Assembly: GCA_025455365.1 (NCBI GenBank)
Contig: JALOMP010000003.1
Span: 1-33,365 of the forward strand
DNA: 33,365 bases
Direction: 5' to 3'
Source of the DNA: Chitinophagaceae bacterium
GTDB lineage: Bacteria; Bacteroidota; Bacteroidia; Chitinophagales; Chitinophagaceae
Part shown: positions 8,176-28,076 of the stretch, one piece after another
Layout of the letters: each line of letters begins with the position of its first letter
Position numbering within the stretch: position 1 is the first letter of the stretch
Notes under the pieces: generated by a model
The model's input: only the letters and a program-made list of their open reading frames with translations
Database searches by the model: none
What the model was told of the DNA's origin: nothing
Program-made: the position numbers and the translations under genes

Positions 8176-8219
8176 CCTGGGAGAACCGCATATTATTTTC
8201 ATGTTTTAGACAAGGTTGA

Positions 8220-10052: not shown

Positions 10053-10069
10053 AAAACATTGATATACAG

Positions 10070-10330
10070 CTAGTTAGCTTTCTCTGTATCGACCATGATC
10101 TTGGACGCTTCATTGAGGCGAAGACTAACCGCATACCCGGCAACCTGAATGGCGATGGGATCGCCCATGGGTGCTACTTGTTCAACGATTACCGTTTCGC
10201 CTGGTATAAATCCCATTTCCATCAATTTCAGGAAAATATCATCCTGCTCAAAATCTCTGATAACACCGGATTCACCCGGTTCCAATTCGGATAATCTTTT
10301 AATCATAAGGAGCAATAGCTTCTGGAACAA
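10070..10330 (-). CDS. FeoA-domain ferrous iron transport protein
   Basis: RLSELEPGESGVIRDFEQDDIFLKLMEMGFIPGETVIVEQVAPMGDPIAIQVAGYAVSLRLNEA. Confidence 0.88.
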   Translation of the reverse strand: MFQKLLLLMIKRLSELEPGESGVIRDFEQDDIFLKLMEMGFIPGETVIVEQVAPMGDPIAIQVAGYAVSLRLNEASKIMVDTEKAN

Positions 10331-10377
10331 AGCTAAGCCAGGCTGGATTGATTTCTCTGTATCTTGGATTGAATTTT

Positions 10378-10806
10378 ATGGCAAGGATATCTTTTGCATA
10401 TCAATTGGCCTATCGGGGTCCCGAAAACAAGGCAAGGCTTCGTGATTTCCTGGTAAGGCTGGCCGGCCGCGAGGGTTATGGTATCGACGAGCTGAACTAT
10501 GTCATCTGCTCGGATAAGTACCTGCTGCAGATCAACCAGGCCTATTTGTCGCACGATTACTATACGGACATCATCACTTTTGACCTCCGGGAGACGGCCG
10601 GGGCTATCAAGGGGGAGATTTATATAAGTCTCGACCGGGTTCGGGATAATGCAAAGACTTGGCGCCAGCCGGTCTATAAGGAATTGCACCGGGTGATTTT
10701 TCACGGGTTATTGCACCTCTGCGGCTATAAGGATACGTTAAAAGCGGACCAGGCGCTTATGCACCAGAAGGAAGATTTTTACCTTGGGGAATATTTCCGA
10801 CGCTGA
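10378..10806 (+). CDS. ybeY: Endoribonuclease YbeY (16S rRNA maturation)
   Basis: SHDYYTDIITFDL...GEIYISLDRVRDNA...ELHRVIFHGLLHLCGYKD metal-binding H3 motif. Start at ATG 10378 preferred. Confidence 0.93.
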   Translation: MARISFAYQLAYRGPENKARLRDFLVRLAGREGYGIDELNYVICSDKYLLQINQAYLSHDYYTDIITFDLRETAGAIKGEIYISLDRVRDNAKTWRQPVYKELHRVIFHGLLHLCGYKDTLKADQALMHQKEDFYLGEYFRR

Positions 10807-10807
10807 T

Positions 10808-11473
10808 ATGTTCCACGTGAAACAATTCGCCCTTTTTTTATTCCTTACCCTGCCCTTCTTCGGATATGCACAGGGTACGGTTGTCATGGAGAAGAAGGAC
10901 TTTATCTTCAATCGGGAAAAGGACCCCGGTGTAGAAAAATTCCTCTCAGGGTTTCCCGAACTGGAAAAGCTGGATCCCCTTGAGCAGGAAAGTTTTTACT
11001 GGATCAACCTGCTAAGAAAGGATCCGGCTGCCTTCTCACAGCATTACCTCGAACCATTTGTAGAGCAGTTCCCCGAACTGAAAGACAGCTATGTCCGGTC
11101 GCTCAAAAAAGAACTTCGCGAATCGCCACCCCTCGGCATGATTGCCCCGGCGGCCATTGTCCAGAAGGAGGCCGACCGGCATGCCAATGACCTGGCGAAG
11201 AGACTGAAAAAGATTTCCCATGAAACCAGTAGTGGCCGGTCCTTTTCCCAACGGATGGCCGATGCTGGAATAAAGCGTTGTGCGGGAGAGAATGTCTTTG
11301 AGGGCGAAGCAGATGCATTACAGGCCCTGTTGCTGCTGCTGATCGACCAGGGTGTTCCAAACCTTGGCCACCGGAAGGCCTTGCTTAACCCGTCCTTTAA
11401 TATAATGGGCGTTTCTGCGGAGCCTACCTCGGATTCCGTTCATTTTATCGTCCAACTGTTCTCCTGCCAATAG
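10808..11473 (+). CDS. CAP/SCP-domain secreted protein
   Basis: MFHVKQFALFLFLTLPFFGYAQG signal peptide; LDPLEQESFYWINLLRKDPAAF...HANDLAKRLKKISHETSSGRSFSQRMADAGIKRCAGENV...NLGHRKALLNPSFNIMGV CAP motifs. Confidence 0.82.
   Translation: MFHVKQFALFLFLTLPFFGYAQGTVVMEKKDFIFNREKDPGVEKFLSGFPELEKLDPLEQESFYWINLLRKDPAAFSQHYLEPFVEQFPELKDSYVRSLKKELRESPPLGMIAPAAIVQKEADRHANDLAKRLKKISHETSSGRSFSQRMADAGIKRCAGENVFEGEADALQALLLLLIDQGVPNLGHRKALLNPSFNIMGVSAEPTSDSVHFIVQLFSCQ
10809..10824. promoter_or_regulatory. parS-like centromere site 1
   Basis: TGTTCCACGTGAAACA, exact match to the parS consensus TGTTNCACGTGAAACA; overlaps the CAP gene start codon. Confidence 0.8.
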
Positions 11474-11488
11474 GTTCCACGTGGAACA
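11473..11488. promoter_or_regulatory. parS-like centromere site 2
   Basis: GGTTCCACGTGGAACA; perfect 14-bp palindromic core GTTCCACGTGGAAC; overlaps the last base of the CAP gene stop codon. Confidence 0.7.
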
Positions 11489-11525
11489 GTCCGCCCGGTT
11501 CCGGCTGGAATCGTAATTTTGCCCC

Positions 11526-13394
11526 ATGTTTCCTGAGTATGATGTTATTGTAGTAGGCGCCGGCCATGCCGGTTGTGAGGCTGCGGCCGCTGCCGCCAAT
11601 ATGGGCAGTCGGACGCTCCTGTTGACCATGAACATGCAGACAATGGCACAGATGAGCTGTAACCCGGCTATGGGAGGCATCGCGAAGGGGCAGATTGTGC
11701 GGGAGATAGATGCCCTTGGCGGATATTCCGGGATCGTGACAGACCAATCGATGATCCAGTTTCGGATGCTGAATAGGTCCAAAGGGCCAGCCATGTGGAG
11801 CCCCCGTGCGCAGAGCGACCGCATGCTTTTTACCAAGAAATGGCGTGAGATGCTGGAACAGACCCCCAACCTGGATTTTTACCAGGATATGGTGAATGGG
11901 ATCCTGGTAAAAGACGGTCGATGCGTGGGGGTGAAAACCGGGATGGGGCATGAAATCCGGGCAAGAGCGGTGGTGCTTACGAATGGTACCTTTCTGAACG
12001 GCATTATTCATGTTGGCGAAAAGAACTTCCAAGGGGGCCGGATGGCTGAGAGAGCCTCCTCCGGGATCACCGAACAACTCCAGTCACTTGGTTTTGAAAG
12101 CGATCGGTTAAAAACCGGTACGCCGCCCCGGATAGACGGGAGAAGCCTGGATTACACGCGAATGGAAGAACAGCCGGGAGACCCAGAGATTTCCGGCTTT
12201 TCATACCTGGACATAGAGAAAATCAATCCCCGGCAACAAAGAAGCTGCTGGATAACCTATACCAACGACCAGGTTCATGAAACCCTGAAGACGGGATTTG
12301 CCCAAAGCCCCATGTTTGCCGGGCGGATCGACGGTGTGGGACCACGCTATTGCCCCAGCATCGAAGACAAGATCAACCGTTTTGCTGAGCGCGACAGGCA
12401 CCAGCTTTTCGTGGAACCGGAAGGCTGGGACACCGTGGAAATCTATGTAAACGGCTTCAGCACATCCCTGCCCGAAGATGTCCAATTCAAAGCCCTTCGT
12501 ATGGTTCCCGGGTTCGAGCAATGCAGGATGTTCCGGCCCGGGTATGCCATCGAATATGACTATTTTCCCCCTACACAGCTTGACTACTCATTGGAAACCA
12601 AGCTATTACAGAATCTTTTCTTCGCCGGCCAGATCAACGGAACCACCGGGTATGAAGAGGCTGCCTGCCAGGGCCTGATGGCCGGCATTAACGCCCATTT
12701 GAAAGTTAGGGAACTGGAGCCCCTGGTTCTCAAAAGAAGCGAGGCGTATATCGGGGTGCTGGTGGATGACCTGATCAGCAAAGGTACCCAGGAACCTTAC
12801 CGGATGTTTACGTCCAGGGCAGAGTACAGAACCCTGTTGCGCCAGGATAATGCAGACCTGAGGCTGACGGCCATCAGTCGGCGCCTGGGCCTGGCATCGG
12901 AGGCAAGGGTGGAAAGGCTCCGGGAAAAAGAGACCGGGGTAGCAGATATAAAGTTGATTATCAATGAGTTGTCTATAGAGCCTGGAGAACTTAACGGATT
13001 CCTGGAGAGCAAGTCATCGGCTCCCCTTAGTCAAAAACAGAAATTATCACAGATCCTGCTTCGCCCCGGCATCAGCCTCCAGGAACTCGCAGCGGCCCTG
13101 CCCAAATTGGGCGAAGCGCTGCGGGGGTACCGCCCTGAAATCATTGAACAGGCTGAAGTGCAGGTAAAATATGATGTGTACATAGAAAAGGAGAGAGAAC
13201 TGGTGGGCAGGATGAGCCAGATGGAAGAACTGGAAATTCCCTTTTCCTTTGATTATACACGGGTCAAAGCCATCAGCACGGAAGCTCGTGAAAAACTGGG
13301 AAGGATTAAGCCGAGGACACTTGGCCAGGCATCCCGGATTTCCGGCATCAATCCTTCCGATGTACAGATCCTGATGGTATATATGGGTAGATAG
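11526..13394 (+). CDS. mnmG: tRNA uridine-5-carboxymethylaminomethyl(34) synthesis enzyme MnmG
   Basis: YDVIVVGAGHAGCEAAAAAANMGSRTLLLTMN...CNPAMGGIAKGQIVREIDALGG...LKTGTPPRIDGRSLDY. Confidence 0.97.
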   Translation: MFPEYDVIVVGAGHAGCEAAAAAANMGSRTLLLTMNMQTMAQMSCNPAMGGIAKGQIVREIDALGGYSGIVTDQSMIQFRMLNRSKGPAMWSPRAQSDRMLFTKKWREMLEQTPNLDFYQDMVNGILVKDGRCVGVKTGMGHEIRARAVVLTNGTFLNGIIHVGEKNFQGGRMAERASSGITEQLQSLGFESDRLKTGTPPRIDGRSLDYTRMEEQPGDPEISGFSYLDIEKINPRQQRSCWITYTNDQVHETLKTGFAQSPMFAGRIDGVGPRYCPSIEDKINRFAERDRHQLFVEPEGWDTVEIYVNGFSTSLPEDVQFKALRMVPGFEQCRMFRPGYAIEYDYFPPTQLDYSLETKLLQNLFFAGQINGTTGYEEAACQGLMAGINAHLKVRELEPLVLKRSEAYIGVLVDDLISKGTQEPYRMFTSRAEYRTLLRQDNADLRLTAISRRLGLASEARVERLREKETGVADIKLIINELSIEPGELNGFLESKSSAPLSQKQKLSQILLRPGISLQELAAALPKLGEALRGYRPEIIEQAEVQVKYDVYIEKERELVGRMSQMEELEIPFSFDYTRVKAISTEAREKLGRIKPRTLGQASRISGINPSDVQILMVYMGR

Positions 13395-13415
13395 GCCACC
13401 TGGAATTCCTCAGCC

Positions 13416-14018
13416 ATGCAACAAAATTCCGCATCCGACAAACAGCTGGAGCTACTGCATACTTTTGTGCAGCGGATTCATCCGATGGGAGACGACGCGT
13501 GGAACGCATTTGCCGGGATATGGCACACGGTAAAGGTTAAACGAAAAACGGGCCTCTTGTCGCCGGGCCAGACGGAACGGCATGTATATTTTGTACTGGA
13601 AGGTGTCCAGCGGGCGTATTTCATGGATGACGACGGCAGGGAGACAACGATTGTCTTTACCTATCCAACATCCTTTTCCGGGGTCGCGGATTCATTTCTC
13701 ACCCAAACACCCAGCATCTATTTTTTTGAAACCCTCACACCCAGTCTTTTCCTACGGTCGGACTACCCGTCTTTCCAGGAAATCACGGACCGTTATCCAA
13801 GCGTAGAGCGCATGATCCGCCAGGCAACGGCTTTTGCTCTGAAAGGCGCCCTGGAACGGCAGGTCGAGCTCAGCGCGTTTTCGGCAGAGCGGAAATTCAC
13901 CACCCTGCTGCGGCGAAGTCCGCATCTCCTGCAACTGATTCCGCAGAAATACCTGGCTTCCTACGCAGGGATTGATGAAGCCACTTTCAGCAAGCTCATG
14001 AAAAAGATTCGTCTCTGA
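13416..14018 (+). CDS. Crp/Fnr family cyclic-nucleotide-binding-like regulator (short C-terminus)
   Basis: GLLSPGQTERHVYFVLEGVQRAYFMDDDGRETTIVFTYPTSFSG cNMP-binding fold; C-terminal YLASYAGIDEATFSKLMKKIRL, HTH-like remnant. Confidence 0.75.
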   Translation: MQQNSASDKQLELLHTFVQRIHPMGDDAWNAFAGIWHTVKVKRKTGLLSPGQTERHVYFVLEGVQRAYFMDDDGRETTIVFTYPTSFSGVADSFLTQTPSIYFFETLTPSLFLRSDYPSFQEITDRYPSVERMIRQATAFALKGALERQVELSAFSAERKFTTLLRRSPHLLQLIPQKYLASYAGIDEATFSKLMKKIRL

Positions 14019-14083
14019 AATCTTGGCCGATTCCAATTTTTTCCATCCAGGTCCGCAATAGTTTTGGTGTAAATTTAAAAGAG

Positions 14084-14689
14084 ATGCCTCCCACGTATGT
14101 AACCAGTGATTTCTTAAGCCAGCGGATCCGGGAAACAGAAAAAATAATCCGTGAAGTCCTGCTGCTGGCGGACTCCCATGCACCCGGTGATTTTCTTGTT
14201 CAACCGGATCCCGCCAGCTGGTCGGCTGCACAGGTGATAGAGCACCTGAATAGCTACAACCGGTACTACCTGCCCGCCATAAGGCATGCATTGGAAAAGA
14301 AACCATTACCGGTTACGCGTGAACGTTACCATGCCGGCTGGCTGGGCGCGTATTTTGCCGCCCTGATGATGCCTCAGCCAGGCGGACGGGTAAAGAAGAA
14401 AATGCAATCGCCCCGTGACCACCGGCCGGCCCCGGCATTGGATGTGGTAAAAGTGCTTGAAGAATTCAAGTCCGGTCAGGAACTGTTGCTGGCGTACATG
14501 CGTGAGTCAGCAAAAACGGATATCGGGGCGATCCGGATTCCCGTTTCAATCAGTCCGCTGATCCGGCTTAAACTGGGGGATACATTTCATTTCCTGGTTG
14601 CCCACCAGCTTCGCCATCTTGAACAGGTAAAGAGAATTTTTCCTATTTTAATGTCGCTAAAGTTAGTGACACCCCCCAGCGGGAAATAG
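14084..14689 (+). CDS. DinB family protein
   Basis: WSAAQVIEHLNSYNRYYLPAIRHALEK ... FHFLVAHQLRHLEQVKRI, DinB four-helix pattern with spaced His. Confidence 0.75.
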   Translation: MPPTYVTSDFLSQRIRETEKIIREVLLLADSHAPGDFLVQPDPASWSAAQVIEHLNSYNRYYLPAIRHALEKKPLPVTRERYHAGWLGAYFAALMMPQPGGRVKKKMQSPRDHRPAPALDVVKVLEEFKSGQELLLAYMRESAKTDIGAIRIPVSISPLIRLKLGDTFHFLVAHQLRHLEQVKRIFPILMSLKLVTPPSGK

Positions 14690-14785
14690 CATCGCTTCAC
14701 TACAAACTCGTCGGCTTCAGATCCTCACCCGTGAACGCATCCCCCAAATTGGTGCAGCCCTTATTCAAACACTTAAAACCATCAC

Positions 14786-15781
14786 ATGCAACACAAGAAC
14801 CGTAGTGTACTTTCTAGCCTGGTTGCCATGCTTTTTTTAATTGCCTGGTCCTGTGGCAATCCCGATTCCAGTCAGCCGGAAACACAGACAGATTCACCGG
14901 GCATTGCGGACAGCGTACAAGCCAGCCTTGACAGGGGACGTTACCTTGCAAACCATGTTACGGGATGCCTCGATTGCCACAGCCAACGGGATTTCACGAA
15001 ATATGCGGGCCCGATCATACCCGGAACCGAAGGCAAGGGCGGGGAGCTTTTCGATCCCAAAGTGGGCGTACCGGGAGAAATTTATGCGCCGAATATAACA
15101 CCGGCTGCCCTGAAGGACTGGACCGACGAAGAATTGACAAGGGCGATCACCGAGGGCATCAACAAAAAGGGCGATACGCTCTTCCCGTTGATGCCTTATA
15201 TGACATTCGCCCAAATGTCACAGGCCGATATCCAGGATATCATCCGATATATCAGGAGCCTGGCGCCTATTGAGAACACGGTTCCGCCCCGTAAACTCTT
15301 CATTCCGATTGCGGCCGCTGTACCCCCTCATCCCAAGCCAGACCTGGCAAAGAATATTAAACCCTCTCCGGACGACCCGGTAAAATATGGTGAATACCTG
15401 GTTCGCAGCGGGTCCTGTTCCGACTGCCATACGCCCATGGTGAACGGCGCCCCGGATTTTGCCCGCTACATGGCCGGGGGTAACAGCTTTAGTGACGGTG
15501 TTTTCACGGTGATATCGCCCAATATCACCTCCGACACACTCACAGGCATTGGTAAGTGGACGGAAGAAATGTTCCTGCAGAAATTTGCCGCCAGTGCGGA
15601 AAAGGCCCGCCAGGCAGATAAACCCGGGGCAATAAACACATTTATGCCCTGGGAATTCTTTGCCAGTATGAAACAGGAAGACCTGAAGGCGATTTATGCC
15701 TACCTCAGAACGGTAAAGCCCGTCCAACAAACCATCGTCAAATGGCCACCACCATCTTCACAGAAAAAAGCGAAATCCTAG
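14786..15781 (+). CDS. Diheme cytochrome c lipoprotein
   Basis: Lipobox LIAWSCGN; two CxxCH motifs (CLDCH, CSDCH); LTRAITEGINKKGDTLFPLMPYMTFAQMSQADIQDIIRYIRSL. Confidence 0.88.
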   Translation: MQHKNRSVLSSLVAMLFLIAWSCGNPDSSQPETQTDSPGIADSVQASLDRGRYLANHVTGCLDCHSQRDFTKYAGPIIPGTEGKGGELFDPKVGVPGEIYAPNITPAALKDWTDEELTRAITEGINKKGDTLFPLMPYMTFAQMSQADIQDIIRYIRSLAPIENTVPPRKLFIPIAAAVPPHPKPDLAKNIKPSPDDPVKYGEYLVRSGSCSDCHTPMVNGAPDFARYMAGGNSFSDGVFTVISPNITSDTLTGIGKWTEEMFLQKFAASAEKARQADKPGAINTFMPWEFFASMKQEDLKAIYAYLRTVKPVQQTIVKWPPPSSQKKAKS

Positions 15782-16698: not shown

Positions 16699-16706
16699 TA
16701 CATTTG
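16699..16706 (+). promoter_or_regulatory. -7 box of the Crp gene (TACATTTG)
   Basis: Exact TAnnTTTG, 3 bp before ATG 16710. Confidence 0.45.
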
Positions 16707-16709
16707 GGT

Positions 16710-17351
16710 ATGACCAGCACCATGTATTCTCCGGCGGAAATCATGCGATTTTTTCCCCTGTTTGACAGGGAACTTGCCGATTTTCTGTCTGAAATAGGCG
16801 AATTAAAAACCTTTAAGGAAGGCGAAGTGCTGATGAAGACCGGCCAGTATTTCAAGGCATCCATGCTGCTCGTCAGCGGCCGGGTCAAACTTTACCGCGA
16901 AGGGGAGGACGGAAACGAGTTTTTCATGTATTTCCTCGAAGGGGGGAATGCCTGTGCCCTGAGCATGATCTGCGCTACCCGGAACCAGGCCAGCGGCATC
17001 ATGGCCGTGGCGGTGGAAGATACGGAAGTGATCATGATCCCCATCCGGTATATGGACCAGCTGATGACCCAGTATAAGTCCTGGTATTATTTCGTCCTGG
17101 AAACCTACCGTAACCGTTTTGAAGAACTGCTGGTAGTGATTGACAATATCGCGTTCAAGAATATGGACGAACGGCTGGAATGGTATCTCCGCCAGCAGGC
17201 TGCAAAAATTGGCAACCACTTAAGCCTCACCCACCAGCAGATTGCCAATGACCTGAATTCATCCAGGGAAGTCATTTCCCGCCTCCTGAAAAAGATGGAA
17301 AGAAATAACCGTCTTATCCTGCACAGGAACCATATCGAGTGGATCGGATGA
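16710..17351 (+). CDS. Crp/Fnr family transcriptional regulator (putative sulfur-island regulator)
   Basis: cNMP fold FKEGEVLMKTGQYFKASMLLVSGRVKLYREGEDGNEFFMYFLEGG; HTH LTHQQIANDLNSSREVISRLLKKMERNNRL with CRP-like SRExxxR recognition helix. Confidence 0.92.
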   Translation: MTSTMYSPAEIMRFFPLFDRELADFLSEIGELKTFKEGEVLMKTGQYFKASMLLVSGRVKLYREGEDGNEFFMYFLEGGNACALSMICATRNQASGIMAVAVEDTEVIMIPIRYMDQLMTQYKSWYYFVLETYRNRFEELLVVIDNIAFKNMDERLEWYLRQQAAKIGNHLSLTHQQIANDLNSSREVISRLLKKMERNNRLILHRNHIEWIG

Positions 17352-17420
17352 TGGTGAGAAATTTCTGCTGATTCCTGCTTTTCCAGCGTAGACTGATTGC
17401 CATCTGGCGACAGGTTTCAA

Positions 17421-17436
17421 TGTGACAAAAGTCATA
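17421..17436. promoter_or_regulatory. Crp/Fnr-type operator, site 1 (persulfide dioxygenase)
   Basis: TGTGAC-AAAA-GTCATA; centre 17428.5, 33 bp upstream of the centre of the -7-like CAATTTTG (17458-17465). Confidence 0.7.
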
Positions 17437-17439
17437 GAT

Positions 17440-17487
17440 GGCTGCTTTTTTAATGGTCAATTTTGTATTCCAACCATTAAAACAGCC
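17440..17487. repeat. Imperfect inverted repeat around the promoter of the persulfide dioxygenase
   Basis: GGCTGCTTTTTTAATGGT (17440-17457) vs ACCATTAAAACAGCC (17473-17487; reverse complement GGCTGTTTTAATGGT); 15-nt loop holds the -7-like box. Confidence 0.7.
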
Positions 17488-17490
17488 AAT

Positions 17491-18912
17491 ATGAAAATCG
17501 AGCAAATTTATACAGGATGCCTGGCACAGGGCGCTTATTACATTGAATGCAATGGTGAAGCGGCCGTAGTGGATCCGCTGCGCGAAGTATCGCCTTACCT
17601 GGAGAAAGCTAAAAAGGATGGTGCCAGGATCAAGTATGTATTTGAAACCCATTTTCACGCAGATTTTGTGTCCGGTCATCTCGACCTCGCCAAAGCTTCC
17701 GGCGCAACGATCGTGTACGGTCCTACGGCGAAGCCCGCATTCGAAGCACATATCGCGAAAGACGGGGAGGAATTCAAACTGGGCAATATCACGATCCAGG
17801 TAATCCACACACCCGGGCATACCATGGAATCCAGCTGCTTCCTGCTGAAGGACGAAACGGGAAAACCAACAAGCCTGTTCAGTGGGGACACGCTGTTTAT
17901 TGGCGATGTGGGTCGTCCTGATCTCGCGCAAAAAGTCATTGCGGAACTGACGCAGGAAAAACTCGCGGCGCACTTGTTTGAATCCCTTCGCAACAAGATC
18001 ATGCCTTTGGCGGATGATATTATCGTTTACCCCGCCCATGGTGCAGGCAGCGCCTGCGGCAAGAACATGAGCAAGGAAACCACGGATACCCTGGGCAACC
18101 AAAAGAAAACAAATTATGCGCTGAATCCTAACCTCACCAAAGAAGGGTTCATCAAGGAAGTACTTACCGGGTTGGTGGCGCCTCCTGCTTATTTCCCATT
18201 GAACGTGCTCATGAATATCAAGGGATACGACAGCATCGACGAAGTACTGAAGCGCGGACAGCATAAACTGGGACCTGCCGCTTTCGAAGCAGCTGCCAAT
18301 GAAACCGGCGCCCTGGTACTCGATACCCGTACCCCGGAATCTTTCGCCCAGGGATTCGTTCCCAATTCGATCAATATTGGTATCGATGGCAGTTTCGCCC
18401 CCTGGGTAGGAACCCTGATCCCCGATATCAAGCAACAGATACTGCTGGTAACAGAACCGGGCAGGGAAGAAGAAGTGATCACGAGGCTTGCGCGGGTAGG
18501 GTATGATTACTGCATTGGTTACCTGGACGGCGGATTTGAAGCCTGGAAGAAAGCCGGCCTTGAAACGGACAGCATCCGTTCCATCACCGCAGACGAACTC
18601 GCAGACATCAGGGCAAAAAATAAGGACGCCCATATCCTGGACGTTCGCAAGAAAAGCGAATTTGATTCAGAGCATGTGGTTGACGCGGAGAACGCTCCAC
18701 TTGATTTCATCAATGATGCCCTTGCCCGGATCAACAGGAAGGAAACCTACTACGTGCATTGTGCCGGCGGCTACCGGTCCATGATTTTTGTATCCACCCT
18801 GCGTGCCCGCGGATTTGATAACCTGGTGGATGTGAAAGGTGGATTCAAGGCCATCAAGGAAACCGGAAAATTCAAGATCACAGATTATGTGTGCCCCAGC
18901 ACCATGCTTTGA
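17491..18912 (+). CDS. MBL-fold persulfide dioxygenase with two rhodanese domains (CstB/ETHE1-like)
   Basis: MKIEQIYTGCLAQGAYYIECNGEAAVVDP; THFHADFVSGH; HTPGHTMESSCF; SGDTLFIGDVGRPDL; YPAHGAGSACGKN; rhodanese 1 without catalytic Cys (LLVTEPGREEE), rhodanese 2 with VHCAGGYRS. Confidence 0.9.
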   Translation: MKIEQIYTGCLAQGAYYIECNGEAAVVDPLREVSPYLEKAKKDGARIKYVFETHFHADFVSGHLDLAKASGATIVYGPTAKPAFEAHIAKDGEEFKLGNITIQVIHTPGHTMESSCFLLKDETGKPTSLFSGDTLFIGDVGRPDLAQKVIAELTQEKLAAHLFESLRNKIMPLADDIIVYPAHGAGSACGKNMSKETTDTLGNQKKTNYALNPNLTKEGFIKEVLTGLVAPPAYFPLNVLMNIKGYDSIDEVLKRGQHKLGPAAFEAAANETGALVLDTRTPESFAQGFVPNSINIGIDGSFAPWVGTLIPDIKQQILLVTEPGREEEVITRLARVGYDYCIGYLDGGFEAWKKAGLETDSIRSITADELADIRAKNKDAHILDVRKKSEFDSEHVVDAENAPLDFINDALARINRKETYYVHCAGGYRSMIFVSTLRARGFDNLVDVKGGFKAIKETGKFKITDYVCPSTML

Positions 18913-19043: not shown

Positions 19044-19697
19044 ATGGAAACCATTACACTTCATTCCATGCCGCGCATCGGCGACATGGCACCCGATTTC
19101 AAAGCGGTCACCACACAGGGCCCCCTGCAATTTTCGGACTTTAACAAAGGCCACTGGGTCGTTTTCTTTTCACACCCGGCCGACTTTACACCGGTCTGCA
19201 CCACCGAGATGAGTGGTTTCGCACTTGAACAGGAATCATTCTTTGAAAAGCGAAACACCAAACTGCTCGGGCTCAGCATTGACAGCATCCACTCCCATAT
19301 TGCCTGGGTGGACAACGTGAAGAAGAACACGGGAATCTATTTCAAGTTTCCCATCATCGCTGATCTCGATATGTCCGTATCGAAGCTTTACGGCATGCTC
19401 CAACCCGGTGAAAGTGAAACAGCCGCCGTGCGCGCGGTATTCTTCATCGACCCAACCGGAAAGATCCGGCTTATCATGTACTATCCACTCAGCGTGGGCC
19501 GGAATATGCACGAAATCAAGCGGGCACTAATCGCCCTGCAGACCAATGACGAACATAAAGTAGCCCTGCCCCTGAATTGGGAACCGGGCGATAAGGTCAT
19601 CGTTCCGCCGCCGAAAACCCTGAAGGAATATGAGGACCGGGTGAACAGCGGACTCGAAATGGTAGACTTCTACCTGGCAAAAAAAGAACTTACATAA
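19044..19697 (+). CDS. Peroxiredoxin, Prx6 (1-Cys-like) type
   Basis: IGDMAPDFKAVTTQGPLQFSDF; FSHPADFTPVCTTE; AVFFIDPTGKIRLIMYYPLSVGRNMHEIKRALIALQ. Confidence 0.92.
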   Translation: METITLHSMPRIGDMAPDFKAVTTQGPLQFSDFNKGHWVVFFSHPADFTPVCTTEMSGFALEQESFFEKRNTKLLGLSIDSIHSHIAWVDNVKKNTGIYFKFPIIADLDMSVSKLYGMLQPGESETAAVRAVFFIDPTGKIRLIMYYPLSVGRNMHEIKRALIALQTNDEHKVALPLNWEPGDKVIVPPPKTLKEYEDRVNSGLEMVDFYLAKKELT

Positions 19698-19745: not shown

Positions 19746-20027
19746 ATGCAGTCATTAAAGGAAATCATCAAGGAAAAGAATGTTGTTTTTGTAGATGTCA
19801 GAACCCCGCAGGAATTTAACGAAGGTCATATCCCGTCTGCCCTGAACATACCCCTGGACCAGATCATGGGGCGGATGGAAGAACTGGAAGGCGCGGAAGG
19901 CCCTATCGTTCTTTATTGCCGCAGCGGCAACCGCAGCGGCATGGCCCTTCATATCCTGCAGTCAGAGGGGTTCAAAAACCTCTATAACGGAGGGGGCATT
20001 GATGACCTGCGTTACCTGCTGAACTGA
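19746..20027 (+). CDS. Cytoplasmic single-domain rhodanese
   Basis: VFVDVRTPQEFNEGHIPSALNIPLDQI; active loop YCRSGNRSG. Confidence 0.93.
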   Translation: MQSLKEIIKEKNVVFVDVRTPQEFNEGHIPSALNIPLDQIMGRMEELEGAEGPIVLYCRSGNRSGMALHILQSEGFKNLYNGGGIDDLRYLLN

Positions 20028-20053: not shown

Positions 20054-20455
20054 ATGAAAACCACTATTCGCAGAGCCTTTTTGGCGTTTGCCGGCTTATT
20101 ATTTGCGGCGAACATATACGCGCAGGACACCAGCGGCAAAGCCATTTCACCGGAGCAATTTGAAAAACGAATGCACAAACGGAAGGTCACGGTACTGGAT
20201 GTGCGAACGCCCGAAGAATATGCGGAAGGCCATTTGCATCATGCCGTGCACATCAACGTGCTGGACAGTGCAGCCTTTGTGTCAAAAGTGCAATCGCTGA
20301 AAAAAAACAGGACCTACCTGCTTTACTGCAAGAGCGGACGGCGTTCCGGAAAAGCGTTGGTGATGATGCAGCAACAGGGATTCCGCAAGCTGTACCATAT
20401 GGACGGCGGGATCACCGCGTGGAAGGGAGCTGTTGAAAAAACGGAGGAGCCTTGA
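20054..20455 (+). CDS. Exported rhodanese
   Basis: Signal peptide MKTTIRRAFLAFAGLLFAANIYAQ; VLDVRTPEEYAEGHL; active loop YCKSGRRSG. Confidence 0.92.
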   Translation: MKTTIRRAFLAFAGLLFAANIYAQDTSGKAISPEQFEKRMHKRKVTVLDVRTPEEYAEGHLHHAVHINVLDSAAFVSKVQSLKKNRTYLLYCKSGRRSGKALVMMQQQGFRKLYHMDGGITAWKGAVEKTEEP

Positions 20456-21876
20456 TGGAGCGGATAAAACAGATGGGACTGGCCACCCTGTTGATCCTGG
20501 TGATACTCCCGCTTTCGTCCGCCCTGGCCCAGCATGGGGAGGATCTGCCATCCAATGCAAGGGCAACGCCGGATACCAATACCCTGCGTCATGCGCTGCG
20601 GAAAGGAAAGTTTGATGCGCATTTCCGGTTGTATTACATGGCTACCCAGAATGAGCAGGAGTTGAGCGACTATTATGCGCTGGCTTTTGGGGGTGGTGTA
20701 AAATACGAGACAGGCGCCTACAAGGGTTTTCGCCTGGGGGTGGGAGGATTTTTTACCTGGAATCTTGCCTCTTCGGACCTGGCTGCGCTGGATCCGGTAA
20801 CGGGCGCCAAGAACCGGTACGAGATCGGGCAGTTTGACGTGGAGGACCCGGAGAATAAAAATGACCTGGATCGGCTGGAGGATTTTTACATTTCCTACGC
20901 ACATAAAAACTGGAAGCTCACTTTTGGTAAGCAAGTGATGCAATCGCCCTTCGTGAACCCGCAGGACGGACGCATGCGCCCAACAGGGGAACAGGGATTA
21001 TGGGGCTACTGGCAGCCTTCCCGCAAATGGAAGATGGAAGGTGGTTGGCTGACCAAGATTTCTCCCCGGGGAACCGTACGCTGGTTTGATATCGAAGAAT
21101 CCATCGGGGTTTACCCGGTTGGGTTGAATATATATGGTGAAAAAAGCCAGTATAAGGGGAACCTGGAATCCGCCGGCATCGGGATTTTAGGATTGCACTA
21201 TCAGGTAACGGATCATATCAGGCTGCAGGGCTGGGATCATTTCGTGGAAGGGATATTCAATACCGCCTTCATGCAAGCTGATGCGGAATGGCCCGCAGGC
21301 CGGAACTTCAGCTGGCTTGGAGGGTTTCAATATACTTATCAGCATGCCGTGGGCGATGGCGGCAACTCGGATCCCCACAAAGCCTATTACCATCCCGATG
21401 AGCAATCGCAGGTATTCAGCGCGCGGGCCGGTGTCCGGAACAAGCATACGCAGATCCTCCTGAACGCCACCCGGATTACCGCAGACGGCCGTTTTCTCAT
21501 GCCAAGGGAATGGGGCCGGGAACCCTTTTATACATTCCTGCCCAGGGAACGCAGCGAGGGCAATGGCGATGTGAAGGCCATTTCCATGAATTTCATCCGG
21601 CAGTTTCCACAACAGCGAATCCGGGCTGAACTTGGCTATGGCTATTACGACCTTGCCGATATCCGGAATGTCCGGCTGAACAAATATCAATTCCCTTCCT
21701 ATCACCAGTTCCTGGCGGATGTCCGCTACCGGTTCGGAGGTTTCCTGGAAGGTATGAATGTACAGGCATTGTATACCTTTAAACGTAACGCCGGGGAAAC
21801 CTACGAGGATCCCCGGTACGTGATCAACAAGGTAAACATGCACCATTTCAACCTGGTTGTCAATTACCTGTTTTGA
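20455..21876 (+). CDS. Outer-membrane beta-barrel porin (OprD/OprO-like)
   Basis: Signal peptide ...LILVILPLSSALAQ; FDAHFRLYYMATQN...YKGFRLGVGGFFTWN...; C-terminal strand NLVVNYLF. ATG overlaps the rhodanese stop (TGATG). Confidence 0.75.
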   Translation: MERIKQMGLATLLILVILPLSSALAQHGEDLPSNARATPDTNTLRHALRKGKFDAHFRLYYMATQNEQELSDYYALAFGGGVKYETGAYKGFRLGVGGFFTWNLASSDLAALDPVTGAKNRYEIGQFDVEDPENKNDLDRLEDFYISYAHKNWKLTFGKQVMQSPFVNPQDGRMRPTGEQGLWGYWQPSRKWKMEGGWLTKISPRGTVRWFDIEESIGVYPVGLNIYGEKSQYKGNLESAGIGILGLHYQVTDHIRLQGWDHFVEGIFNTAFMQADAEWPAGRNFSWLGGFQYTYQHAVGDGGNSDPHKAYYHPDEQSQVFSARAGVRNKHTQILLNATRITADGRFLMPREWGREPFYTFLPRERSEGNGDVKAISMNFIRQFPQQRIRAELGYGYYDLADIRNVRLNKYQFPSYHQFLADVRYRFGGFLEGMNVQALYTFKRNAGETYEDPRYVINKVNMHHFNLVVNYLF

Positions 21877-21983: not shown

Positions 21984-22553
21984 ATGTCATTTATTGAATG
22001 GATTAAACAACCGTGGCCATGGTATGTGGCTGGCCCACTCATCGGGCTGATGGTTCCCACCCTCCTGATACTGGGGAACCGGACTTTTGGCATCTCTTCT
22101 TCCTTGCGCCACGCTTGTGCGGCCTGTGCCCCGGGTGATATCGCCTTTTTCCAGTACGACTGGAAGAAGGAAACCTGGAATTTGCTTTTCGTGGCAGGGA
22201 TCGTCGTGGGCGGTTTCCTGGCGGCATCCTTCCTGAGCAATGGCTTGCCGGTTAACGTCAATCCAAAGCTGGTGGAGGAAATGAGCGGGTATGGGATTAC
22301 CAATTACACCGGGACGGTGCCCACTGACATTTTCAACTGGCCGGCCCTGTTGACGGCGCGGGGATTGATCATGATGGTCCTGGGTGGATTCCTGGTAGGT
22401 TTTGGAACCCGGTATGCGGGTGGCTGTACATCGGGTCACGCGATTATGGGATTATCCAACCTGCAATGGCCATCGCTGGTTGCCACCGTTTCATTCATGG
22501 CCGGAGGGTTCATCATGGCCAATCTCGTGCTTCCCTTCATTCTTAAACTCTGA
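21984..22553 (+). CDS. YeeE/YedE family sulfur-compound transporter, first half
   Basis: PWPWYVAGPLIGLMVPTLLILGNRTFGISSSLRHACAACAP...FGTRYAGGCTSGHAIMGLSNLQWPSLVATVSFMAGG. Confidence 0.9.
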   Translation: MSFIEWIKQPWPWYVAGPLIGLMVPTLLILGNRTFGISSSLRHACAACAPGDIAFFQYDWKKETWNLLFVAGIVVGGFLAASFLSNGLPVNVNPKLVEEMSGYGITNYTGTVPTDIFNWPALLTARGLIMMVLGGFLVGFGTRYAGGCTSGHAIMGLSNLQWPSLVATVSFMAGGFIMANLVLPFILKL

Positions 22554-22564
22554 CAAAAATCATT

Positions 22565-23092
22565 ATGGAAAAAGTTGCAGATATCAAGGACCCTGTGCTG
22601 GTCGAAGAAAAAAACACGGATTTTGAAGTAAGGTCGCTCGATGCGGTTTGCATTAACCAGGAAGAAGTGCAGGTTCCCAAATGGCACCTGATCAAGTATA
22701 TGCTGCTGGGGGTTTTGTTCGGGATCATCCTGGTGAAATCCGAAGTGATTTCATGGTTCCGCATACAGGAAATGTTCCGCCTGCAGAGTATTCATATGTT
22801 CGGCGTCATCGGCTCGGCCGTTGTGGTGGGGATGATCTCCGTGTTCCTGATCAAGAAGTTCAAAGTGAAAACGATATACGGGGAGAAAATCGTGCTGAGC
22901 GACAAGAAATTCAACAAAGGACAGATTTATGGTGGCCTGACTTTTGGGTTTGGATGGGCCCTCACGGGTGCCTGTCCCGGTCCGCTTTTCGCACAAATTG
23001 GCTCGGGAGCGACGGTCATTATCGTCACTCTGCTGAGTGCGATTGCAGGCACGTGGATATACGGACGATTCAGGGAAAAGTTGCCGCATTGA
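22565..23092 (+). CDS. YeeE/YedE family sulfur-compound transporter, second half
   Basis: GVLFGIILVKSEVISWFRIQEMFRLQSIHMFGVIGSAVVVG...GLTFGFGWALTGACPGPLFAQIGSG. Confidence 0.9.
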   Translation: MEKVADIKDPVLVEEKNTDFEVRSLDAVCINQEEVQVPKWHLIKYMLLGVLFGIILVKSEVISWFRIQEMFRLQSIHMFGVIGSAVVVGMISVFLIKKFKVKTIYGEKIVLSDKKFNKGQIYGGLTFGFGWALTGACPGPLFAQIGSGATVIIVTLLSAIAGTWIYGRFREKLPH

Positions 23093-23094
23093 TC

Positions 23095-24138
23095 ATGACA
23101 ACGCTTGCCTTCATGAAAAACAGCCTTGGTTTTCTACACCGGGTTTTCCGCCAGGGGCGATCGCAATGGTCGCTGGCCCTCGTCGGCTTCGTCCTTGCGG
23201 CAGCTTCCTGCGGAGGCGGGGAAGGTGGCGACGGGGGTGCTAAAACTGCGGCCGTGAGCGATTCCATATATGTTGAAGAATCGCCTTGGCGTGGCTGGAA
23301 CAAGTACCAGATCAAACTGGAGGATACACTCGCCCGGTACGGACGGGAACTTATTGAACATACGTCCCGGTACCTGGGTCCCAAAGGAACCGTAGCAGCC
23401 ATTTCCAATGGAATGAACTGCCAGAATTGTCACCTGGACGGTGGTACCATTCCCTGGGGAAATAATTACAGCGCCGTGGTATCCACCTATCCGAAATTCC
23501 GTGATCGCAGCGGTTCGGTGGAAACCATTCCCAAAAGGGTGAACGACTGTTTTGAACGAAGCCTGAATGGAAAAGCGCTGGATACTGCCAGCCGGGAAAT
23601 GAAAGCCATACTCGCCTATATGCACTGGCTAGGCGATGATATACCGAAGGGTAAGAAACCCAAAGGTTCAGGCATCATGGAACTTCCTTTTATGGATCGA
23701 GCGGCAGACCCGGCGGCCGGCAAAGCGGTCTACATGGCCAAATGCCAGGTTTGCCATGGGCCGGACGGCCAGGGTCAGAAATCGGCCGATGGTTATGAAT
23801 ATACCTATCCTCCCCTGTGGGGTGAGCACAGTTATAATAGCGGGGCAGGACTGTTTCGGATTACAAGGTTTGCGGGCTATGTAAAGGCATCGATGCCCTT
23901 CGGGCTGGCCGATCATAAAAATCCGCAGCTGAGCGATGCAGAAGCCTGGGATGTGGCTGCTTTTGTGAATTCACAACCCCGGCCTAAGAAAGACCTCAGT
24001 GGCGACTGGCCGGACATTTCCAAGAAACCCCTGGATCATCCTTTTGGTCCGTACGCGGATGGATTTACGGAAAATCAGCATAAATACGGGCCTTTTGGAC
24101 CGATAGAAAAAGCGAGAAAAGAAAAAAGCAGGAAATGA
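23095..24138 (+). CDS. tsdA: TsdA-like diheme cytochrome c (thiosulfate dehydrogenase family)
   Basis: NGMNCQNCHLDGGTIPWGNNYSAVVSTYPKFRDRSGSVETIPKRVNDCFERSLNGKAL...EMKAILAYMHWLGDDIPKG; second heme CQVCH. Start set after the YeeE stop; the longer ORF start (22681) overlaps YeeE out of frame. Confidence 0.83.
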   Translation: MTTLAFMKNSLGFLHRVFRQGRSQWSLALVGFVLAAASCGGGEGGDGGAKTAAVSDSIYVEESPWRGWNKYQIKLEDTLARYGRELIEHTSRYLGPKGTVAAISNGMNCQNCHLDGGTIPWGNNYSAVVSTYPKFRDRSGSVETIPKRVNDCFERSLNGKALDTASREMKAILAYMHWLGDDIPKGKKPKGSGIMELPFMDRAADPAAGKAVYMAKCQVCHGPDGQGQKSADGYEYTYPPLWGEHSYNSGAGLFRITRFAGYVKASMPFGLADHKNPQLSDAEAWDVAAFVNSQPRPKKDLSGDWPDISKKPLDHPFGPYADGFTENQHKYGPFGPIEKARKEKSRK

Positions 24139-24181: not shown

Positions 24182-24880
24182 TTAGCCAGCGAAAACATAG
24201 CCGCAGCCTTTTTCCTGTGCCCGACCCAGTGCCCAGACGCCGGAAGGTACCGGCTGTATACCGGGAATAAGGTTATTTGTCCAGTCGCTGATCACGTCGT
24301 TGGCCTTGAGTTGCATGGAGCCGGCAACCACATTGCCATACACGGTCATCGCGGCCTGGCAGACGCAGAAAAGGACACCGCTTTTCATGAGCTGGTTGAT
24401 ACCGATTTCAACTTCGCCGATACCAGGGACCATAAACGCGCCCGGTGGCGGGTTCCAGAATGGATTGCGGGTGGCTGGTTTGCTGGTGGCAGGGTCCATG
24501 GCCTTAAAGACCTCGCCAAACTTGTATTTTTCCCACATTCCCTGGGTCATCGCGTAGGGGATGGCTGCATGCCGCAATACAACAACGGCGCAGCAATCCT
24601 GCTCGAGGGCCCCGGTAGCCTTGTTTGTCATGAGGAAAACCCTTGGCCAGGCAAAGGGATAGATTTCATGCGGTTGGGTAACGTCGAAGACCATTTTGTG
24701 TTTCCCTTTGATGCGGTCGACCCAGGCTCCCGGGTCTTCGGCGAAATGAGTGGGTGTATTTGATTCAAGGGGTGAGGAAATTTCATCGAAGGATGAAAGC
24801 CCGATTGTAGCGGCACCGGCTGCAATGGATTGGATGAATTTACGGCGATTAGAGTGGTGCGCCGTTGCATGCGGGTCCAT
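24182..24880 (-). CDS. Tat-exported DsrE-fold-like protein
   Basis: Tat motif NRRKFIQSIAAGAATIGL; DVTQPHEIYPFAWPRVFLMTNKATG...CCAVVVLRHAAIPYAM...INQLMKSGVLFCVCQAAMTVYG...IPGIQPVPSGVWALGRAQEKGCGYVFAG, DsrE-like C-terminal pattern. Confidence 0.65.
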   Translation of the reverse strand: MDPHATAHHSNRRKFIQSIAAGAATIGLSSFDEISSPLESNTPTHFAEDPGAWVDRIKGKHKMVFDVTQPHEIYPFAWPRVFLMTNKATGALEQDCCAVVVLRHAAIPYAMTQGMWEKYKFGEVFKAMDPATSKPATRNPFWNPPPGAFMVPGIGEVEIGINQLMKSGVLFCVCQAAMTVYGNVVAGSMQLKANDVISDWTNNLIPGIQPVPSGVWALGRAQEKGCGYVFAG

Positions 24881-24988: not shown

Positions 24989-26740
24989 ATGAAATCGGAA
25001 AAAAGCCAGATCCAGGTCCCTTGTTCCTGCGGCAGCATCCATGCACAGGATCGCCGTCATTTCCTCAAAGACATGTCCCTTGGTTTTGCGGCCCTATCCG
25101 GGATCCCGCAAGTGGCCGGCGCGATGGGGGGTATGGCTTCCCGGGAACAGGAATGGTCCCGAAGTGGCGTATTACAGCAGGGCAAGGCGCAGCGGATCAC
25201 CCTGCTCCACACGGCGGATATTCATGCGCAACTATATACACACGACGAGTTTTTCTGGGAGAAGGGAGGGCCGGTTTACAAGCCCCGTGGCGGCATGGCG
25301 GTTCTGAAAACCATGTTGCAGACCCTGAAAAAAGACAATCCCGGTAAGACATTGCTGATTGATGGGGGCGATTGCTTCCAGGGAGGTGGCGTGGCGGCCC
25401 TGAGCGAAGGGAAGGCCATCGTGCCCCTGATCAATAATATCGGGTACGACCTGATGCTGCCCGGCAACTGGGAGGTGGTTTATGGAAAAGAGATGATGGA
25501 GAAAGACCTGGGCGGGTATGATGCGCAGAAAATATGTGCCAACATGTTTCACGATACCCGGGATGACCGTAAGGGGGAACTGATGTTTCATCCTTGGTGG
25601 ACCACACATTTCGGGGACACTAAAATTGGGTTTATCGGTTACAATGACCCCTTGACCCCCCGGCGACAATCGCCTGCTTACAGCGAAGGTATCCAGTTTA
25701 CCAAGCCAGAGAAAAACGTGGCGCGGTATATCCGCTACCTGCGGGACTATGAGCTGTGTGACATGGTTTTCCTGGTGACCCATATGGGCCTTGCGCAGCA
25801 GGTTGACCTGGCCAACCAGCCTTACGTGGATGGCGTTGATTTTATCCTGGGTGCAGACACACATGAAAGAGTGCGGGAACCGATCCAGGCAAAATACTCG
25901 AAAGTGACGGAGCCGGGCGCATTCGGATCCTTTGTATCCAAACTGGATATTATCATCGAGAACGGTAAGGTGAAAGATACCAGTTACCAGCTGCTGGATG
26001 TGGACCCTGCCAGGTACAAGCCTGATCCTGAAATGCAGCAACTGGTAAGCAAAGCAAGGGAACCTTACAAACAGGAGCTGGACAAGGTTGTTGGTAAATC
26101 GAAAACCACGCTGGTTCGGTATTATGTGCTGGAAAACCCCATGGACAATCTAATTACCGATGCCATCTACTGGAAGTTCAAACCGGATATCGCGTTGAGC
26201 AACGGTTTCCGGTTTTGCCCGCCACTGGTTCCGGATCCCAGGACGGGCGTTGCGGAAATTACCAATGAATTCCTGTGGAGCATGATCCCGGTTGATAGTG
26301 ATGCCAAGACCGGCGTTATAACGGGGGAACAACTCTGGAACTGGCTGGAAAAGGAACTGCACAACGTATTTGCCAAAAATCCCGCACAACGCTTCGGGGG
26401 ATGGGTGGTTCGCTTCAAGGGCATGGAGATTAATTTCACCGCCTACAACGAAATGGGTAAACGCCTGAACTGGGTAAAGGTGAAAGGAGAGCCGGTGGAC
26501 CTGGAAAAACAGTATACCATCGTAGCCTGTGAACGGCATGGAGATCCGGATGACAACCTTTGCCGGGTAGAGCATGTGAGCGAGGCCCGTAAATTAGGGG
26601 CCACCCTGCACCAGATCATGCGGGAATACCTGGCCGCACATAGTCCTGTTTCGCCGCGGATCGAGAAGCGGGTCACCGCCACGGATGTGCCCCAGGACCT
26701 GCTTTCCCAGCTGGAGGGATATCCTTATACTTTCCGCTAA
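24989..26740 (+). CDS. SoxB-like Tat-exported thiosulfohydrolase / 5'-nucleotidase superfamily
   Basis: Tat motif DRRHFLKDMSLG; LLHTADIHAQLYTHDEFF; LLIDGGDCFQGGG; LMLPGNWEVVYG; GFIGYNDP; VTHMGLAQQVDLA; GADTHERVREP; NGFRFCPPLVPDP. Confidence 0.8.
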   Translation: MKSEKSQIQVPCSCGSIHAQDRRHFLKDMSLGFAALSGIPQVAGAMGGMASREQEWSRSGVLQQGKAQRITLLHTADIHAQLYTHDEFFWEKGGPVYKPRGGMAVLKTMLQTLKKDNPGKTLLIDGGDCFQGGGVAALSEGKAIVPLINNIGYDLMLPGNWEVVYGKEMMEKDLGGYDAQKICANMFHDTRDDRKGELMFHPWWTTHFGDTKIGFIGYNDPLTPRRQSPAYSEGIQFTKPEKNVARYIRYLRDYELCDMVFLVTHMGLAQQVDLANQPYVDGVDFILGADTHERVREPIQAKYSKVTEPGAFGSFVSKLDIIIENGKVKDTSYQLLDVDPARYKPDPEMQQLVSKAREPYKQELDKVVGKSKTTLVRYYVLENPMDNLITDAIYWKFKPDIALSNGFRFCPPLVPDPRTGVAEITNEFLWSMIPVDSDAKTGVITGEQLWNWLEKELHNVFAKNPAQRFGGWVVRFKGMEINFTAYNEMGKRLNWVKVKGEPVDLEKQYTIVACERHGDPDDNLCRVEHVSEARKLGATLHQIMREYLAAHSPVSPRIEKRVTATDVPQDLLSQLEGYPYTFR

Positions 26741-26807: not shown

Positions 26808-28076
26808 ATGAAATCCCATTACGAGGTGCTGATCATCGGAGGTGGCACCGGCGGCATTATGACGGCCGCGCAACTCAAACGCAAGGACAGCAAACTTTCC
26901 ATCGGGCTCATTGAGCCCAGCAAGGAACATTTTTACCAGCCTGCCTGGACATTGGTGGGCGCAGGTGCATTCAATTTCAACAAGACAAGAAGAGCCGAAG
27001 CTTCATTGATCCCGAGCGGTGTGGACTGGATACAGGATTACGCCACCACTTTCCAACCGGAGTCAAACCAGGTCAGTACCCGCAACAGCGGCAATATAAC
27101 CTACGACGTAATGGTCATCAGCGCAGGCATACAGATGGACCTGGATGCCCTCCCCGGATTACGGGAAGCATTGAAAACCGACAGTGTATGCAGCAATTAC
27201 CTTGATCCGAAAAAGACATTCGAAGTCCTTAAAAAATTCAAGGGAGGCAATGCTGTTTTCACGCAGCCGGCCACGCCGATCCGTTGTGGCGGGGCGCCCC
27301 AGAAAATCATGTACCTGGCGGAGGAATATTTCAAGAAAAGCGGGGTAAGGCCGCAGACCAATGTGGTCTTCGCCACACCCGGCTCCGTCATTTTTGGCGT
27401 GAAAGTATTTGCTGATGAACTGAATCGCATCCTGGAAGAGAAACACGTGCATTTTAAAACCTTTTACAAGCCGGTTAGTATTGATCCGGTGAAAAAAGAA
27501 ATCACTTTCCAGTACACCAAGGCGGACAGTGTGATTGAAGCGTCCAACCTGGATCAGGCGATCGGTGAAAAAACAGGCGAAAAGAACATGGTGACCATGC
27601 CTTATGACATGCTTCACCTGGCACCTCCCCAGAGCGCCCCGGACTTCATCAAGCAATCGCCCTTTGCTTACCAGGACGGACCCAATAAAGGCTGGCTGAA
27701 CGTGGACATCCACACCCTGCAAAGCAATACCTATGCGAACGTGTTCGGCCTGGGCGATTCCGCTGCCCTGCCTACGGCCAAGACCGGTGCGGCCATCCGC
27801 AAGCAGGTTCCCGTGGTGGTTGAGAATGTCATCCGGATCCTGCAGCAGATGCCTGTGGGGAAGGAGAAAATTTATGAAGGCTATTCTTCCTGCCCGATCG
27901 TTACCGGCTATGGTAAAATGTTACTCTGTGAATTCAAATACGATAATGTGCGCGACAGCGACCCCTTCCTGAGCAAATTCGTGGACACCAGCAAGGAGAA
28001 GTGGAGTATGTGGATCCTGAAGAAATTCGGTCTGCCCTGGCTCTACTGGAACATGATGCTCAAAGGACGCATGTAG
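26808..28076 (+). CDS. sqr: Sulfide:quinone oxidoreductase, type II (SQOR-like)
   Basis: YEVLIIGGGTGGIMTAAQL; HFYQPAWTLVGAG; TPIRCGGAPQKIMYLAEEYF; GLGDSAALPTAKTGAAIRKQ; YSSCPIVTGYGKMLLCEF. Both SQR cysteine contexts are present. Confidence 0.92.
   Translation: MKSHYEVLIIGGGTGGIMTAAQLKRKDSKLSIGLIEPSKEHFYQPAWTLVGAGAFNFNKTRRAEASLIPSGVDWIQDYATTFQPESNQVSTRNSGNITYDVMVISAGIQMDLDALPGLREALKTDSVCSNYLDPKKTFEVLKKFKGGNAVFTQPATPIRCGGAPQKIMYLAEEYFKKSGVRPQTNVVFATPGSVIFGVKVFADELNRILEEKHVHFKTFYKPVSIDPVKKEITFQYTKADSVIEASNLDQAIGEKTGEKNMVTMPYDMLHLAPPQSAPDFIKQSPFAYQDGPNKGWLNVDIHTLQSNTYANVFGLGDSAALPTAKTGAAIRKQVPVVVENVIRILQQMPVGKEKIYEGYSSCPIVTGYGKMLLCEFKYDNVRDSDPFLSKFVDTSKEKWSMWILKKFGLPWLYWNMMLKGRM

Follow-up and report, generated by a model that had tools for sequence, protein, structure and literature searches.

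Introduction

SoxB is a standard marker gene of sulfur oxidation. An experimentally studied counterpart of the locus described here belongs to Erythrobacter flavus 21-3, in which, according to genetic evidence, TsdA makes tetrathionate, SoxB is needed for its conversion to sulfate and zero-valent sulfur, and a dioxygenase composed of a metallo-beta-lactamase (MBL) and a rhodanese part oxidizes the zero-valent sulfur (PMC7608252, PMC9426585). In liquid culture, a soxB mutant of this bacterium accumulated tetrathionate and formed no zero-valent sulfur (PMC7608252), and a tsdA mutant supplied with tetrathionate still made zero-valent sulfur (PMC9426585). The combination of TsdA and SoxB without SoxYZ is already published, and Bacteroidetes have been listed among the carriers of TsdA and SoxB homologues (PMC7608252, PMC9426585). 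The mutant evidence for an action of SoxB on tetrathionate has been found mainly in this one marine alphaproteobacterium.

A second relevant system is that of Metallosphaera cuprina, whose DsrE3A reacts with tetrathionate, and not with thiosulfate, to give a Cys-S-thiosulfonate, the group that SoxY carries; the enzyme that would strip the sulfonate from DsrE3A was unknown in that work (PMC4175335).

In this study, a SoxB-like protein of a Chitinophagaceae bacterium was analysed together with its gene neighbourhood, its relatives and its predicted active site. The window denotes the whole stretch of DNA analysed, which has a length of 33,365 nucleotides. In the literature searched, which largely excluded subscription papers, no paper was found that describes the clade of this protein, the Asp ligand or the surrounding gene cluster.

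Results

The SoxB-like gene is a single intact frame with an ATG start, and it lies in a cluster of sulfur-related genes. A scan of species genomes yielded 235 relatives, and all neighbourhood counts given below refer to the loci of the best 80 of these 235. The features of the window are as follows, with the frequency among the 80 best loci where counted:

16704..17351, plus strand: Crp/Fnr-type regulator (Pfam cNMP_binding, HTH_Crp_2; 24/80)
17491..18912, plus strand: predicted persulfide (sulfur) dioxygenase (MBL fold and rhodanese region; 55/80)
19044..19697, plus strand: peroxiredoxin (NCBIfam PRK13189, above cut-off)
19746..20027, plus strand: rhodanese without signal (Pfam Rhodanese)
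20054..20455, plus strand: rhodanese with signal peptide, exported (Pfam Rhodanese; signal read by eye)
20452..21876, plus strand: OprD-like outer membrane porin (Pfam OprD; 40/80)
21984..22553, plus strand: YeeE/YedE thiosulfate or sulfur transporter, first half (Pfam Sulf_transp; 45/80)
22565..23092, plus strand: YeeE/YedE partner half, DUF6691 (Pfam DUF6691, Sulf_transp; 47/80)
23113..24138, plus strand: TsdA-type dihaem thiosulfate dehydrogenase (lipoprotein-like signal, CQNCH, CQVCH, conserved Cys in DCFERSLNG)
24182..24880, minus strand: Tat-exported protein with DsrE-like C-terminal half and conserved Cys174
24989..26740, plus strand: SoxB-like thiosulfohydrolase homologue, 583 residues (Tat signal RRHFLK, CxC motif ahead of it)
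26808..28076, plus strand: SQR-type flavoprotein (Pfam Pyr_redox_2; 10/80)

The dioxygenase was named by its architecture, its family matches lying below the curated cut-offs, and the flavoprotein scored 225 bits on NCBIfam SQR_III, under the cut-off of 525. In addition, TauE, named by likeness to annotated TauE genes, occurred in 53 of the 80 best loci. The Crp/Fnr-type protein possibly regulates the cluster.

The top curated family for the SoxB-like protein was SoxB (TIGR04486), on which it scored 271 bits, below the membership cut-off of 550 bits; UshA and other nucleotidase models scored lower still, and canonical SoxBs from the Bacteroidota sample reached 829-858 bits. A 5'-nucleotidase C-terminal domain was present (Pfam), and the closest solved structures by sequence were those of Thermus thermophilus SoxB. 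An AlphaFold2 model built from 26 sequences had a pLDDT of 81, and a Foldseek search with it placed SoxB structures at the top (TM 0.74-0.82; best matches 2wdc and 2wdf, TM 0.75-0.82), with nucleotidases behind by E-value. Tat export is predicted from the RRHFLK motif by reading of the sequence alone. Directly before the Tat RR motif lies a CxC (often CxCxxC in relatives; 25019-25066 in the window, residues 11-26). Of the 65 full-length relatives whose Tat motif could be recognised, 61 had this element, as did every tree member sampled from the subclade that carries GGDCFQG, and it was found in none of the canonical SoxBs or remaining subclades.

In a tree with nucleotidases as the outgroup, the window clade (100/100) and canonical SoxB (100/100) were separate, and the nucleotidases (99/96) and a group of SoxB-like proteins of about 480 residues (100/96; the 480-residue group hereafter) each formed one clade. 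The window clade, canonical SoxB and the 480-residue group joined at 99/96, apart from the nucleotidases, and a sister relation of the window clade to the 480-residue group was weakly supported (77/71). The separate 100/100 clades exclude nesting of the window protein in canonical SoxB; it is therefore not a divergent copy within that family, and the distinct clade proposed by the sequence-only reading is borne out.

The record titles of the best 80 of the 235 relatives named Bacteroidota or uncultured bacteria, the former comprising Chitinophagaceae, Sphingobacteriaceae with Daejeonella, Cyclobacteriaceae and metagenome-assembled genomes labelled Flavobacteriales; the clade is one of freshwater and soil Bacteroidota. 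Of 40 genomes close to that of the window, some had a close orthologue (59-74% identity) and others had none, and clade members also occurred on Runella and Pontibacter plasmids, so that the cluster looks patchy and mobile. A phage collection held only distant nucleotidase-like matches to the window protein. A basal subclade (genomes G143, G282 and G310) had neither the Tat signal nor TsdA; in each of these three genomes a DsrE-like gene adjoined the SoxB-like gene, and two of them also carried DoxX- and TlpA-like genes, as read by eye.

The active site was compared across 38 members of the window clade, 19 canonical SoxBs, 13 members of the 480-residue group and 7 nucleotidases. By alignment, the putative metal ligands of the window protein are D77, H79, D128, N160, H265, D290 and H292. 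The sequence-only reading had drawn attention to two motifs, GGDCFQGGG and GNWEVVYG, which were located at residues 126-134 and 159-166. The reference motifs that it had named were also recovered, since GGDTWQGS occurred in 11/19 and GHWEFTY in 16/19 canonical SoxBs, and GNH[DE] in six of the seven nucleotidases, the seventh having GNHN. The Cys in place of Thr is present in the window protein and did not hold as a mark of the clade: residue 129 was Cys in 27, Met in 7 and Leu in 4 of the 38 members, with Cys129 limited to the GGDCFQG subclade. The Met or Leu in 11/38 rules out Cys129 as a catalytic or clade-defining residue. Likewise, the nucleotidase Asn and the SoxB Trp are indeed combined in GNWE, with N160 invariant and Trp161 at the position of the nucleotidase catalytic His in all 38 members (SoxB likewise has Trp there), and the combination is not unique, as two proteins of the 480-residue group have GNWD.

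Judged from the alignment, a sharper clade mark than Cys129 or the Asn-Trp combination is residue 290, which was Asp in 38/38 clade members (GADTHER, more generally G[AGN]DTHER) and His in 39/39 canonical SoxBs, 480-residue proteins and nucleotidases (GHTH in SoxB and the nucleotidases). The aligned His of UshA and CD73 coordinates the second metal. Asp290 thus appears to replace a His ligand common to SoxB and the nucleotidases, which suggests that the metal site of the clade differs from that of either family. Both variable metal-ligand His residues of SoxB (GHW and GHTH) were replaced, by Asn160 and Asp290, in all 38 members. Moreover, the GFR-aromatic motif of SoxB (SPGFRWG) was retained as SNGFRF, and profile alignments showed the nucleotidase motifs PFGN and GGDGY changed to PVDS-type and GDPD..CR sequences. 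The aromatics of PFGN and GGDGY stack the nucleobase in UshA and CD73.

The TsdA of the window matched the Allochromatium vinosum TsdA structures with an E-value of 6e-47, including the Cys of DCFERSLNG, which we take to be the haem ligand. A TsdA homologue was found within 10 kb of the SoxB-like gene in 70 of the 80 best loci, in most of them immediately upstream (median -57 bp); only three of the ten loci without it had more than 5 kb on both flanks. In a partner survey of 297 Bacteroidota genomes drawn evenly, 15 genomes carried the window clade and 14 carried canonical SoxB. TsdA was present in 11 of the 15 clade genomes versus 23 of the 282 others (Fisher p 9e-9, kinship ignored), or in 12/15 when genome G108 is counted, in which a run of N masks the expected place of TsdA and a TsdA-like C-terminus remains; the other three clade genomes lacking TsdA are those of the basal subclade. 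Given this linkage, the best guess for the substrate is tetrathionate or a thiosulfonate formed from it, and both kinds were among those listed by the sequence-only reading.

The lack of a SoxYZ partner, first noted for the window, extended further. SoxY accompanied canonical SoxB in 14/14 genomes and was found in 0/15 window-clade genomes of the 297-genome sample. Furthermore, neither SoxY nor SoxZ was found in 1.33 Mb from the 80 best loci, and identical queries did match the canonical loci. The same search of the window and of the rest of its genome (89% complete) was also negative, with the controls silent in the genome, and the claim of absence therefore rests on the 297-genome sample and the 80 best loci.

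At least 27 of 60 well-flanked loci encoded, within 6 kb of the SoxB-like gene and often 0-100 bp downstream of it, an exported DsrE protein (PF02635) with one invariant Cys. The frame at 24182-24880 (minus strand) of the window is divergent from the SoxB-like gene and 108 bp from it. Its C-terminal half matched the exported DsrE alignment (hhalign probability 96.2%, E 2e-9) with the Cys kept, its AlphaFold2 model was poor (pLDDT 49), and it gave a weak match of 25 bits to the TSD-type thiosulfate dehydrogenase family NF052225. The protein could be a sulfur carrier replacing SoxYZ. Across the 297 genomes, DsrE and TsdA occurred together in 16 (Fisher p 1.5e-14, kinship ignored). As a universal obligate partner of the SoxB-like protein, DsrE was rejected, because none was found near many loci and because it also occurs with TsdA alone. 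Eight genomes (G190, G073, G254, G120, G178, G194, G047 and G158) have TsdA adjoining or near an exported DsrE and no SoxB-like match, and the TsdA-DsrE pair may form a self-contained unit in Bacteroidota. A separate observation concerns a Bosea protein (L143:21404-22192) that scored 395 bits on NF052225; a C-terminal half resembling DsrE, with the conserved Cys, may be part of this family and could account for its chemistry.

The 480-residue group was represented by loci L095, L142, L143, L135, L144, L136, L137, L138 and L098, in which the genes were mostly clustered with YeeE, TauE, DsrE, SQR or Blh-type genes. Since no signal peptide is visible, these proteins may be cytoplasmic thiosulfohydrolases. 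Locus L136, the Pontibacter akesuensis plasmid Paks1, has three different SoxB/nucleotidase-type genes in one sulfur cluster (8153-15082 and 17371-18255), an arrangement also known from E. flavus, and it encodes a DoxX-DsrE fusion as well.

Discussion

The reading we prefer, at a probability of roughly 0.55 for the whole, is that the protein is a sister type of SoxB, a hydrolase of the periplasm with two domains and two metals, which would act after TsdA in a SoxYZ-independent oxidation of thiosulfate by hydrolysing the S-SO3 bond of tetrathionate. In its favour are the TsdA linkage, the lack of SoxY in the clade genomes, the retained GFR-aromatic motif alongside the loss of the nucleotidase His and aromatics, SoxB as the top fold match, and the E. 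flavus mutants. The E. flavus pathway and the window homologues of its three functions together point to S-SO3 hydrolysis of tetrathionate or a derived thiosulfonate, and by this analogy removal of sulfate from one of the two is the most likely activity. The homology, the linkage and the lack of SoxYZ are observations, whereas the substrate, the products and the direction of TsdA are inferred. TsdA, whose homology is clear, would oxidize thiosulfate to tetrathionate, and the SoxB-like enzyme would release sulfate and sulfane sulfur from it, as proposed for the SoxB of E. flavus 21-3. The sulfane sulfur would then be handled by the rhodaneses, imported by the YeeE pair and oxidized by the dioxygenase, with electrons entering at TsdA and possibly also at the SQR-like enzyme. 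The absence of TsdA from the basal subclade (G143, G282 and G310) stands against this reading. Moreover, the Asp290 change and the missing SoxB His might alter or abolish S-sulfonate activity.

The strongest rival, which we hold to be unlikely, places the thiosulfonate on a protein. The single Cys of an exported DsrE-type protein, or of an exported rhodanese, would react with tetrathionate to Cys-S-SSO3, from which the SoxB-like enzyme would strip sulfate, leaving a Cys persulfide, and DsrE would be the replacement of SoxYZ. The chemistry has its precedent in Metallosphaera DsrE3A (PMC4175335), and the exported DsrE with its invariant Cys at 27 or more of the 60 well-flanked loci, the Tat-exported DsrE-like half with the same Cys beside the window gene, and the co-occurrence of DsrE with TsdA would all suit such a carrier. 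However, no DsrE was found near over half of the loci, the window protein is only a distant DsrE relative with a poor structure model, and DsrE also adjoins TsdA in genomes without the SoxB-like gene (e.g. G190, G073 and G254), so that it may be a partner of TsdA only. The specific form in which a periplasmic DsrE-type Cys takes thiosulfonate from TsdA-made tetrathionate and the Asp-ligand SoxB variant hydrolyses it seems doubtful at present. If true, it would mean that DsrE, and not SoxYZ, is the basis of a carrier system for sulfur oxidation in the periplasm.

A less probable account reverses TsdA, which would serve as a tetrathionate reductase, while the SoxB-like enzyme would act on another sulfonate, such as trithionate, an organic thiosulfonate or glutathione S-sulfonate, and would serve detoxification or the supply of sulfur, not energy. 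TsdA enzymes can work in both directions (PMC7608252), and the rhodaneses, the peroxiredoxin and the SQR-type enzyme would also suit the detoxification of sulfide or polysulfide. Nevertheless, the porin, the YeeE pair and the dioxygenase of most loci suit uptake and oxidation of inorganic sulfur, and the E. flavus cluster, which has the TsdA, SoxB and dioxygenase functions in common with that of the window, oxidizes thiosulfate (PMC7608252).

That an ordinary periplasmic nucleotidase or phosphatase sits in the sulfur cluster by chance is very improbable, and pure nucleotidase activity is unlikely on sequence grounds: although 5'-nucleotidases have the same fold and C-terminal domain and likewise an Asn in GNxE, the catalytic His is Trp in 38/38 members, the base-stacking aromatics are gone, the protein groups with SoxB at 99/96, and its linkage to TsdA is strong.

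Under the preferred reading, action after TsdA on tetrathionate, carriers of the clade probably have a route of thiosulfate oxidation that would escape standard surveys of Sox genes. Because the window protein falls almost 280 bits under the curated cut-off, thiosulfate oxidation is probably underestimated in Bacteroidota of freshwater and soil. Through the linkage to TsdA, the idea that SoxB acts on tetrathionate becomes testable in culturable Flavihumibacter, Daejeonella, Lacibacter, Terrimonas and Runella, and the His-to-Asp ligand change offers a direct handle on the choice of substrate and metal by SoxB-type enzymes.

Four known types can be compared with the window clade. It has in common with SoxB (TIGR04486; 2wdc, 2wdf) the fold, Tat export, the Trp where nucleotidases have their catalytic His, the GFR-aromatic motif and the sulfur context. 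It differs from SoxB in its separate clade, in its score of 271 against a cut-off of 550 bits, in Asn and Asp for the two SoxB His, in the CxC before the Tat motif of the window protein, and in the lack of SoxYZ in the genome, the 80 best loci and the sampled clade genomes. The two-domain fold, the Asn of GNxE and the C-terminal domain family are also those of UshA and CD73, from which the window clade is set apart by its own branch, by the missing catalytic His and base-stacking aromatics and by Asp for the second-metal His. The 480-residue proteins, encoded on plasmids of Sphingobium, Bosea, Bradyrhizobium, Pontibacter and Hymenobacter, are likewise SoxB-like members of SoxYZ-free sulfur clusters (with YeeE, TauE, SQR or Blh), whereas they have a GDTFHGT motif, His at 290, no visible signal peptide and a clade of their own (100/96). 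Finally, the TsdA-SoxB-SdoA/B system of E. flavus likewise unites TsdA, a SoxB-type enzyme and an MBL-rhodanese dioxygenase in a proposed route without SoxYZ (PMC7608252, PMC9426585), and the MBL and rhodanese architecture of SdoA matches that of the window dioxygenase (PMC7608252). E. flavus belongs to a different phylum, and its SoxB may belong to the window clade, the 480-residue group or canonical SoxB. An OprD-like porin and, in many cases, an exported protein of the DsrE type are further components of the Bacteroidota clusters.
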